DNA from: Deltaproteobacteria bacterium
GTDB taxonomy: Bacteria > Myxococcota_A > UBA9160 > UBA6930
Length of the DNA: 64,000 nucleotides
NCBI GenBank assembly: GCA_016875395.1
Contig: VGRF01000025.1
Coordinates: 1-64,000 of the forward strand
Direction of reading: 5' to 3'
Position numbers and translations under genes: made by a program. The notes under the pieces are model-generated. The model was given only the letters and a program-made list of their open reading frames with translations. It was not told where the DNA came from and did not search any database. How positions within the stretch are numbered: position 1 is the stretch's first letter; each line of letters begins with the position of its first letter. This document shows positions 34,859 through 37,899 of the stretch, piece after piece.

Positions 34859-34896
34859 CGAGCGTGACGCACCCGTGTAGCCCGCCTCGCTGCGCC

Positions 34897-34975
34897 GACC
34901 CGAACGCTCGGCGTCTGACGCTCGGCGTTCGGGTCGCCGGCCCTGCGGGGGACCCGAACGCCTGGCGTCAGACGC
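34897..34975. repeat. triple GACCCGAACGC repeat with inner palindromes
   Basis: GACCCGAACGC occurs at 34897-34907 and 34951-34961, and inverted at 34925-34935. Between and after these lie GCGTCTGACGC (34911-34921) and its reverse complement GCGTCAGACGC (34965-34975). The cluster fills the gap between paaG and the mlaA fusion gene and ends five bases before the GTG of the latter. It can fold into alternative hairpins. It may be a paaG terminator, a leader structure or a remnant of a repeat element. It is too short and irregular for a CRISPR. Confidence 0.5.
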
Positions 34976-34980
34976 CGAGG

Positions 34981-36870
34981 GTGCGAGTCCGTGCCGCCTG
35001 CGTCTCGCTCGCGTTCGCTTTCGCGCTGCTCGCGTCCGGCTGCGCCTCGGTTCCGGCGGATACGGACGCGGCGACGAACTCCGCGGTGCTCGGCAACGAC
35101 GCGCTCTACGCCCCGCCGCACGGCGAGGGCTTCTCGGTGCTCGTGTACACCGAGGATCCGCTCGAGCCCGCGAACCGCCTCAGCCTGCGCGTCACGAAGG
35201 GTGCGCTCGACTACGTCGCGCAGCCGCTCGCGCTCGGCTACCGCGCGCTCGTGCCCGAGTTCGCGCGCGAAGCGCTCTCGCGCTTCTACGGCAACCTCAA
35301 CTACCCCGGCCGCTTCGTCAGCTTGTTGATGCAAAGGCGCCTCAGAGACTCGGGCGAAGAGACCGGGCGCTTCCTCGTCAACTCCACCGCGGGCCTGCTC
35401 GGCCTCTTCGATCCCGCAACGCGCCTCTCGCTCGACTCGTTCCCCGAAGACGTGGGCCAAGCCTTCGGCCGCTGGGGAATCAGGCCCGGCCCCTATCTCT
35501 TCTTGCCCATGCTCGGCCCGAGCAACACCCGCGACGCCGTGGGCCGCATCTTCGACATGGCGCTCGATCCCGCGACGTACTTCACCGGTGCGACGCTCGC
35601 GTTCGGGCTGAACTCCTTCTCGCTGCGCGTCGACGACTACCGCGATCTCTCCGCCGTCGAGGCCGACTGGTACGCGCCGATCCGGACTTATTGGGCAATT
35701 CGGCGGGAGGCCGAGGTCGAGAACTACAGCATCCCGCTGACCGCCTTCGAAGCGAGCGACCCCGAGCCCTCGCTCGGCGTGCTGAAGTTCTCGCCGCGGG
35801 ACCCCTCGTTCGGGCGGCGCGCGAAGGAGCGCGAGCTCGCGCTGCCGAGCACGGGCAAGACGCTGCGCTACTCGCTCTGGCTCCAGCCCGCGCCCGCGCC
35901 GCTCTTGTTCGTGCTGCCGGGCATCGGCTCGCACCGGCGCGGCGGCACGACCGTCGCGCTCGCGGAGATCGCGTACGCGCGCGGCTTCTCGGTCGCCGCG
36001 ATCAGCAGCGCGTTCCAGCCCGAGGTGCAGCTCACCGCACTGCGCGCGCCGTACCCCGGCTTCGCGCCTCACGACGCGGCCGACATTCGCGCCGCGCTCG
36101 AAGCGATTCATGCCGACGTCGCGGCGTGGAAGCCCGGGCGCGTCACGAGCGCGAGCCTCGTCGGCCTCTCGCTCGGCGCCGCGCATGCGCTCCACATCGC
36201 AGCGCGGCCCGAAGGCGCACTCCAGTTCGAGCGCATCGTCGCCGTGAGTCCTCCGGTCGACTTCTTGTTGGCATCGCGCCGCTTCGACGAGTTCTTCGAC
36301 GCGCCGCTGCGCTGGCCCGCGGCCGAGCGCGACCGGCGCGTGCTCGAGATCGGCAAGAAGGCGCTCGCGCTGTTCGACGGCGACGTGAGCGACCCGCGCC
36401 TGCCCTTCGACCGCATCGAGTCCGAGTTCCTGATCGGGCTCAACGGCCGCGACGCCGTGCACAACGCGATGGTCGCGATCCAGACGACGACGGGCCGCGG
36501 CGTGCTGTTGCAACCCGAGCTCGATCCCGAGCGCGGCTGGCTGCTCGAAGAGGTGAACCACAGCTCGTTCGACGCCTACGTGCGCCACCTCGTGGTGCCG
36601 CACTTCCTCGTGAGCGACCCCGACGCGAGCATCGACTCGCTGCTCGAAGCGAGCGGCCTGCGCGGCATCGCGCCAGCGCTCGCCGCGGACCCGCGCGTGT
36701 CCATCTTCACGAACGCCGACGACTTCTTGTTAGGCCCCGGTGACGCGGAATGGCTGCGCACGGCGCTCGGTGAACGCGCCACGGTCTTCCCGAGCGGTGG
36801 GCATCTCGGGAATCTGTGGGTGCCGGAGGTGCAGCGCGCGATCTTCGACGCGCTCTCCTCAGCGCCCTAA
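34981..36870 (+). CDS. mlaA: MlaA/VacJ lipoprotein fused to an alpha/beta hydrolase
   Basis: The 629-residue product begins with a lipoprotein signal (lipobox cysteine at residue 21 in LLASGCAS). The MlaA domain follows at about 45-240 (YTEDPLEPANRLSLRV, RFYGNLNYPGRFVSLL, FLVNSTAGLLGLFDPA, GPYLFLPMLGPS). Residues 290-629 or so form an alpha/beta hydrolase with nucleophile elbow GLSLG (Ser near 395), a late aspartate region (TNADDFLLGPGD) and a terminal histidine (SGGHLGNLW). MlaA extracts mislocalised phospholipids from the outer leaflet; a fused hydrolase could act on the extracted lipid. No mlaBCDEF is nearby. The start is the in-frame GTG at 34981. Confidence 0.82.
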   Translation: MRVRAACVSLAFAFALLASGCASVPADTDAATNSAVLGNDALYAPPHGEGFSVLVYTEDPLEPANRLSLRVTKGALDYVAQPLALGYRALVPEFAREALSRFYGNLNYPGRFVSLLMQRRLRDSGEETGRFLVNSTAGLLGLFDPATRLSLDSFPEDVGQAFGRWGIRPGPYLFLPMLGPSNTRDAVGRIFDMALDPATYFTGATLAFGLNSFSLRVDDYRDLSAVEADWYAPIRTYWAIRREAEVENYSIPLTAFEASDPEPSLGVLKFSPRDPSFGRRAKERELALPSTGKTLRYSLWLQPAPAPLLFVLPGIGSHRRGGTTVALAEIAYARGFSVAAISSAFQPEVQLTALRAPYPGFAPHDAADIRAALEAIHADVAAWKPGRVTSASLVGLSLGAAHALHIAARPEGALQFERIVAVSPPVDFLLASRRFDEFFDAPLRWPAAERDRRVLEIGKKALALFDGDVSDPRLPFDRIESEFLIGLNGRDAVHNAMVAIQTTTGRGVLLQPELDPERGWLLEEVNHSSFDAYVRHLVVPHFLVSDPDASIDSLLEASGLRGIAPALAADPRVSIFTNADDFLLGPGDAEWLRTALGERATVFPSGGHLGNLWVPEVQRAIFDALSSAP

Positions 36871-37899
36871 CACCTCGGCCAGCGCGAGCACGAGCCGCTC
36901 GGTCGCGTCCCAGCCGAGACACGCGTCCGTGATGCTCTTCCCGTACGCGAGCGGCTGCGCGCTCGGCTCCTGCTTCCCGCCCACGAGATGGCTCTCGACC
37001 ATCAGCCCCCGCAGCGCGTTCTGCCCTGCGCGTCGCTGCGCAGCGACCGCGAGCGCGACGTCGCGCTGCTTCTCGGGCGCGCGCTCGCTGTTCGCGTGCG
37101 AGCAGTCGACCATGATCGCGTCCAGCAGCGCGTGCTCCCGTAACAACTCCGCCGCAGCGCTCACCGAAGCCGCGTCCCAGTTCGGCTTTGCGCCGCCGCG
37201 CAAGACGAGGTGCGCGTAGGGGTTCCCCGATGTCTCGAGAATCGCGGGCGCGCCCTCCTTCGTGAGCGAGGGGAAGATGTGCCGCGCGCGCGCAGCGCGG
37301 ATCGCATCGACCGCGACGCGCACGTCGCCATCGGTGCGGTTCTTGATGCCCACCGGCATCGAGAGCCCACTCGCGAGCTCGCGATGCACCTGGCTCTCGG
37401 CCGTGCGCGCGCCGATCGCACCCCACGACACGAGGTCCGCGTAGAACTGCCCGAACGTCGTGTCGAGAAACTCCGTGCCCGCCGGCAGCTCGCGCGCCGC
37501 GATCTCGGCGAGCAGGCCGCGCGCGATCCGCAGCCCCTTGTTGATGTGATACGAGCCGTCGAGATCGGGATCGTTGATGAGTCCCTTCCAGCCGACCACC
37601 GTGCGCGGCTTCTCGAAGTAGACGCGCATCACCACGAGCACGCGCTCGCGCACGCGCTCTGCCAGCGCGCGCAGCTTGTCCGCGTACTCGAGCGCCGCGC
37701 GCACGTCGTGGATCGAGCACGGCCCCACGACGAGCAGCACGCGCGCATCGCGTCCGTCCAGCACCGCTTCCACGGCGCGCCGCGAGCGCACGACGAACTC
37801 GGACGCGCCGGGTGTTAGGGGAATCTCCTCCGCGAGCACCGCGGGCGCGATGAGGGGACGGACGGCGGTGATGCGGAGGTCGTCGGATTTCGGCGTCAT
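36859..37899 (-). CDS. aroG: 3-deoxy-7-phosphoheptulonate (DAHP) synthase, class I
   Basis: The 346-residue enzyme condenses phosphoenolpyruvate and erythrose 4-phosphate in the first shikimate step. Family motifs are VGPCSIHD, MRVYFEKPRTVVGWKGLIND, TFGQFYADLVSWGAIGART, GIKNRTDGD, the metal-ligand segment VDCSHANS, and GLMVESHLVGGKQ. Length and motifs place it with AroF/G/H-type enzymes. Its 3' end overlaps the convergent mlaA fusion by 12 bp. It carries one sense and one antisense copy of the TTGTTA-type word. The specific feedback amino acid cannot be told. Confidence 0.93.
   Translation of the reverse strand: MTPKSDDLRITAVRPLIAPAVLAEEIPLTPGASEFVVRSRRAVEAVLDGRDARVLLVVGPCSIHDVRAALEYADKLRALAERVRERVLVVMRVYFEKPRTVVGWKGLINDPDLDGSYHINKGLRIARGLLAEIAARELPAGTEFLDTTFGQFYADLVSWGAIGARTAESQVHRELASGLSMPVGIKNRTDGDVRVAVDAIRAARARHIFPSLTKEGAPAILETSGNPYAHLVLRGGAKPNWDAASVSAAAELLREHALLDAIMVDCSHANSERAPEKQRDVALAVAAQRRAGQNALRGLMVESHLVGGKQEPSAQPLAYGKSITDACLGWDATERLVLALAEVLGR

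Follow-up and report, generated by a model that had tools for sequence, protein, structure and literature searches.

A predicted lipoprotein joining an MlaA domain and an MlaY-type serine hydrolase in one chain

The fusion gene and its surroundings

The window, i.e. the whole 64,000-nucleotide stretch of DNA analysed here, contains a frame of 629 codons plus stop that is open throughout and encodes a lipoprotein signal, an MlaA domain and an alpha/beta hydrolase domain (Table 1), as the initial annotation had described. The GTG codon at 34981 is the sole in-frame start that retains the signal peptide. As is typical of the MlaA/VacJ family, the protein carries a lipobox (LLASG-C21), from which an outer-membrane location is predicted; Cys21 is conserved in 13 of 14 aligned members of the window's class. 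Membership of the family is further evident from the PF04333 score of 165.6 bits (cut-off 25). The catalytic serine, formerly placed near residue 395, is Ser397 within GLSLG, and the Asp and His of the triad are residues 581 and 608.

Table 1. Features of the MlaA-hydrolase fusion gene in the window.
Feature	Position	Strand	Details and basis
MlaA-hydrolase fusion gene	34981..36870	+	629 aa, GTG start
Lipoprotein signal peptide	34981..35043	+	lipobox LLASG-C; lipidated Cys21 (predicted) at 35041-35043
MlaA domain, residues 58-244	35152..35712	+	Pfam PF04333, E 1.4e-48; Foldseek 5nuo, TM 0.82
Linker, residues 245-281	35713..35823	+	alignment; site of the MlaC-binding tail in canonical MlaA
MlaY-type alpha/beta hydrolase domain, residues about 282-626	35824..36858	+	AlphaFold2 model; MlaY homology
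Catalytic Ser397 (GLSLG)	36169..36171	+	corresponds to MlaY Ser187; invariant, 84/84; alignment
Helical cap/lid insertion, residues about 428-570	36262..36690	+	secondary structure of AlphaFold2 models
Catalytic Asp581	36721..36723	+	corresponds to MlaY Asp388; invariant, 84/84; alignment
Catalytic His608 (GGHLG)	36802..36804	+	corresponds to MlaY His415; invariant, 84/84; alignment

Structure prediction, which the initial annotation had proposed, recovered both folds. AlphaFold2 modelled the whole 629-aa chain with a pLDDT of 82.8 and a pTM of 0.81, and the hydrolase domain alone (47 aligned sequences) with a pLDDT of 92.1 and a pTM of 0.92. In these models the helical lid is placed between core strands of the hydrolase. 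The models carry no inter-domain error, and the hydrolase may face the MlaA channel. Foldseek matched one half of the protein to MlaA structures (5nuo) and the other half to alpha/beta hydrolases. PDB sequence searches with hydrolase profiles returned weak matches only, and the family assignment of the hydrolase therefore rests on MlaY (see below).

Phenylacetate-pathway-type genes and an enoyl-CoA hydratase gene lie upstream of the fusion, and a convergent DAHP-synthase-like gene (36859-37899, reverse strand) follows downstream; both were identified by eye. The fusion gene and the DAHP-synthase-like gene share 12 bases at their 3' ends (36859-36870). A palindromic repeat (34889-34997) spans the interval that separates the fusion from the enoyl-CoA hydratase gene and extends into the first codons of the fusion. 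Its two arms of 53 nt are 81% complementary and enclose a further inverted repeat, and its core, absent from the rest of the window, is present in three copies at this site (chance 0.06). On sequence grounds it is a candidate REP-like element or terminator. No MlaC or MlaFED gene adjoins the fusion as in the canonical MlaA neighbourhood, and its neighbours in the window say nothing about lipids.

Relatives of the fusion and origin of its two halves

Five genomes of the window's class encode the hydrolase and an MlaA as two genes; the hydrolase gene comes first, and its stop codon overlaps or abuts the start codon of the MlaA gene. A tblastn search with one of these split-pair hydrolases led to a Pseudomonas aeruginosa gene annotated as alpha/beta fold hydrolase, which lies directly before a VacJ family lipoprotein gene (VacJ/MlaA). 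Its product contains S187, D388 and H415. These residues match exactly the active site that has been reported for MlaY (PMC11977310). The window hydrolase aligned with this protein at 28% identity over 352 aa (BLASTP, E 2e-40), hhalign gave a probability of 100 (E 8e-41), and S397/D581/H608 of the fusion align with S187/D388/H415. By these comparisons, the hydrolase half is a homologue of the P. aeruginosa phospholipase MlaY.

In P. aeruginosa, MlaZ, a second protein of the MlaA family, is reported to deliver phospholipids to MlaY for degradation (PMC11131202, PMC12569750), and E. coli without pldA is reportedly rescued by MlaY and MlaZ in combination (PMC11977310). The fusion resembles this pair (PA3239-PA3238) in that an MlaA-family protein is co-encoded with a homologous serine hydrolase of the same catalytic triad, here in the same reading frame, and in that extraction followed by degradation is presumed. 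Since the hydrolase is homologous to MlaY, the window protein probably works as the MlaZ-MlaY pathway does but in a single chain, and this is how it is best read from its sequence. There are clear differences: MlaZ and MlaY are two proteins, and in Pseudomonas the hydrolase gene precedes the MlaA gene, whereas the MlaA part comes first in the fusion. In the Pseudomonas record (L228:4950-7118) the lipobox is found on MlaY (LALGC) and none on MlaZ, while the anchor of the fusion is at the MlaA end. The initial annotation had suggested that a tethered domain might degrade lipid extracted by MlaA, and this idea gains support from the homology to MlaY, which works with an MlaA-family protein. The MlaYZ precedent was absent there, and the concept is thus less new than was assumed: the extract-and-degrade pathway is already known, and what is new is the separate MlaA lineage (see below), the reversed order and the pattern of MlaC or hydrolase as partner of MlaA.

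A split hydrolase-MlaA pair was also seen in a record labelled Fusobacterium vincentii plasmid (L231:2899-4972), which extends the pair to Fusobacteriota; at 2.1 Mb and 29% GC, this record is probably a chromosome.

The fusion is widespread. A full-length relative with 40% identity is encoded in another genome of the same family, 12 further full-length fusions were found within the window's class, and full-length homologues in independent assemblies share 35-49% identity. When a profile of the hydrolase half alone was run against one genome per species, 237 relatives were obtained, and all 80 of these that were listed carry an MlaA domain in the same frame. Scans of genome and viral contigs with exact peptide patterns from the window protein alone gave no match, because only exact patterns from a single sequence were used. 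The deduplicated set comprises 84 distinct fusions including that of the window, from Myxococcota-type deltaproteobacteria, Verrucomicrobiota, Planctomycetota, Lentisphaerota and Sumerlaeota. The Ser397/Asp581/His608 triad is invariant in all 84, and the concern raised at the outset that catalytic residues might be missing is removed. A simple lipobox pattern is present in about half of the 84, although this pattern is crude and misses some real lipoboxes; many Verrucomicrobiota fusions have an apparently ordinary signal peptide instead. Two relatives with frames of 1326 and 1515 aa were considered as larger fusions and rejected. In both, the MlaA part is immediately preceded by an ordinary signal and lipobox start, and no extra Pfam domain was found in the 925-aa part of relative L072 that was scanned, so that the long frames are read as GC-rich upstream read-through.

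MlaA-domain trees place the fusions in a single clade with four Verrucomicrobiota pairs of separate genes that have MlaA first and the hydrolase second. A second clade, nested within the canonical MlaA radiation, holds Pseudomonas MlaZ, a Skermanella relative and the five reversed pairs; this grouping apart from the fusion clade received an SH-aLRT support of 99. Forcing all hydrolase-linked MlaAs into one clade cost 22 log-likelihood units and was rejected in an AU test on a set without Pseudomonas MlaZ (p 0.009). The MlaA half did not behave as an orthologue of MlaZ. Judged from these sequences, it is a lineage separate from MlaZ with reversed gene order, which is new here. The separate clades and the AU rejection imply either that the pairing of MlaA and hydrolase had at least two origins or that it is ancestral and the canonical lineage lost it; the unrooted tree is compatible with both.

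MlaC or hydrolase as the partner of MlaA, and the proposed function

MlaA is an outer-membrane channel that extracts misplaced phospholipids, and MlaC is the usual lipid carrier. Canonical MlaA (PF04333; MlaA-MlaC-MlaFEDB) has the lipoprotein signal, the MlaA domain and the fold in common with the fusion. The fusion, in contrast, has a hydrolase at the site of the MlaC-binding tail and no MlaC beside it. An even sample of 195 Verrucomicrobiota genomes contained 76 MlaA genes, of which 22 lie by an MlaC gene (within 500 bp), 50 are fused and 4 have a neighbouring hydrolase gene; none has both partners and none has neither. Only one Verrucomicrobiota genome (G575) encodes MlaC as well as the hydrolase, and it has two MlaAs, one of each kind. 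Among MlaA-bearing genomes of this phylum, MlaC and hydrolase exclude one another with a Fisher p of 1.5e-17, a value that ignores shared ancestry. The 42 MlaA genes of Planctomycetota showed a similar pattern: MlaC lies within 3 kb of 25, another 15 are fused, none has both partners and 2 have neither. MlaC is absent from 23 of 24 fusion genomes of Verrucomicrobiota, Planctomycetota and allied phyla, and in the exception (G400) an extra short MlaA adjoins MlaC. Luteolibacter pohnpeiensis and Lentisphaera marina are cultured carriers of the fusion in which one MlaA and no MlaC were found. The incompleteness of MAGs can hide MlaC, though hardly in so regular a pattern.

In E. coli the C-terminal tail of MlaA recruits MlaC (PMC10245069, PMC10719372). 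In the alignment, the hydrolase of the fusion occupies the position of this tail. The acidic tail motif, EDDLYDIDEL in the canonical MlaA of this genome, was not found in hydrolase-linked MlaAs; it is a weak criterion alone, as some MlaC-linked MlaAs also lack it. The mutual exclusion and the position of the hydrolase fit a replacement of MlaC by the hydrolase as lipid acceptor. Outside the window's class, the fusion may thus replace MlaC as the partner of MlaA. It is the co-occurrence data from other phyla, and not the window's own genome, that point to such independence from MlaC.

In the window's class, MlaC is kept in 18 of the 19 genomes that have an MlaA-hydrolase pair. The window's genome encodes three MlaAs, namely the fusion, one within an mlaE-D-A-C cluster on contig 12 and, on contig 24, one adjoining another MlaC gene, and both MlaC and MlaE are encoded twice. 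MlaE was present in all 43 tested genomes with a pair. The claim that the fusion is independent of the MlaFEDB transporter, made because none of its genes is nearby, is therefore not upheld. Given the canonical cluster and the second MlaA/MlaC, a degradative route would probably run in parallel to transport here, as in P. aeruginosa. PF02253 (PldA) had no match in the fusion protein or in this genome, and PldA was absent from 42 of the 43 genomes with a pair, although it may be rare in these phyla regardless of the fusion. PldA (OMPLA) would share with the fusion the presumed outcome, breakdown of mislocalised outer-leaflet phospholipid, but its fold is a beta barrel unrelated to the fusion hydrolase.

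We consider it likely that the fusion serves outer-membrane lipid asymmetry by both extracting and degrading phospholipid in a single chain. The lipid anchor and the MlaA domain would be seated in the outer membrane, where stray outer-leaflet phospholipids would be drawn down through the MlaA channel. The channel would pass the lipid not to MlaC but to the C-terminal MlaY-type serine hydrolase at its periplasmic mouth, where Ser397/Asp581/His608 beneath the helical lid would remove the acyl chains. Lipid transfer would then take place within one molecule.

Esterases and thioesterases also occur among alpha/beta hydrolases of this fold, so the substrate of the fusion could differ. The hydrolase might be an accessory esterase or acyltransferase for a non-phospholipid or modified-lipid substrate, serving in acyl transfer to an envelope acceptor, in lysophospholipid clean-up or on another acyl ester, with the MlaA half only supplying lipid or anchoring. 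Consistent with this, the fold matches many esterases and thioesterases, RhlA and PlaF are among the Foldseek matches, no curated family model matched the window hydrolase above cut-off, and Pfam barely detected an Esterase domain in this half (E 0.1). PlaF (PDB 6i8w), a membrane phospholipase A and the sixth Foldseek match, is likewise an alpha/beta hydrolase and has phospholipase activity, but it shares 15% identity (TM 0.46 to query), lacks an MlaA domain and is no closer to the fusion hydrolase than several esterases. The homology and common triad with MlaY, a reported phospholipid degrader, and the constant pairing with MlaA make an accessory enzyme rather unlikely.

Still less probable is that the MlaA half continues to serve MlaC, transport and degradation then sharing one channel and the hydrolase taking only part of the lipid flux. 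The two copies each of MlaC and MlaE in this genome and the retention of MlaC in the window's class would suit such an arrangement. However, MlaC adjoins other, separate MlaA genes in this genome, it is missing from nearly all fusion genomes of other phyla, no sampled MlaA gene in two phyla has both partners, and the acidic tail motif, albeit not universal, is not found in hydrolase-linked MlaAs. The chance of an assembly or frameshift artefact, the concern of the initial annotation, or of a lost stop codon is negligible: despite a GC content of about 72% and long spurious frames around the gene, at least 83 other distinct full-length loci in independent assemblies of several phyla share the fusion.

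The single-chain extract-and-degrade reading bears on how outer-membrane asymmetry is kept in bacteria without MlaC. One gene that unites extraction and degradation, and that replaces MlaC almost without exception in two phyla, is a directly testable alternative. More broadly, and with slightly less than even confidence, we suggest that MlaA has two exclusive acceptors across diderms, MlaC or an MlaY-type phospholipase, that the second arose at least twice, and that the fusion is the main MlaC-free and PldA-free means of clearing misplaced outer-membrane phospholipid in MlaA-bearing Verrucomicrobiota and many MlaA-bearing Planctomycetota. The fusion would also be natural (Rosetta-stone) evidence for direct lipid hand-over from MlaZ to MlaY in Pseudomonas, and structural studies of how lipid leaves MlaA could be done on it with a single protein. 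MlaA, MlaB and MlaC were described as sparse outside Proteobacteria in a 2023 survey of Mla components, which turned to long MlaD bridges; the words 'fusion' and 'hydrolase' do not occur in its main text. No mention of a natural MlaA-hydrolase fusion was found in the literature searched, which did not include the original MlaYZ paper.

Genes beside the fusion at related loci

The fusion is the only gene common to most of the loci. No neighbour is kept across relatives, and a conserved operon was therefore rejected. TamB functions in phospholipid transport to the outer membrane. In one relative (G005, L060:697-4470) a TamB gene, Pfam-confirmed on L005, lies directly upstream of the fusion and abuts its start, and in another (G049, L069:2-1912) a TamB-like homologue is found upstream. 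In Skermanella rosea (L230:5032-7167) the split hydrolase-MlaA pair is followed by TamB. This association with the fusion or the split pair is suggestive, the cases being too few to build on. At up to nine Verrucomicrobiota loci (L093, L102, L105, L116, L118, L120, L124, L139 and others) a PRC-barrel-like or response-regulator-like gene, identified by eye, was seen near the fusion, suggesting a stress-gene neighbourhood.
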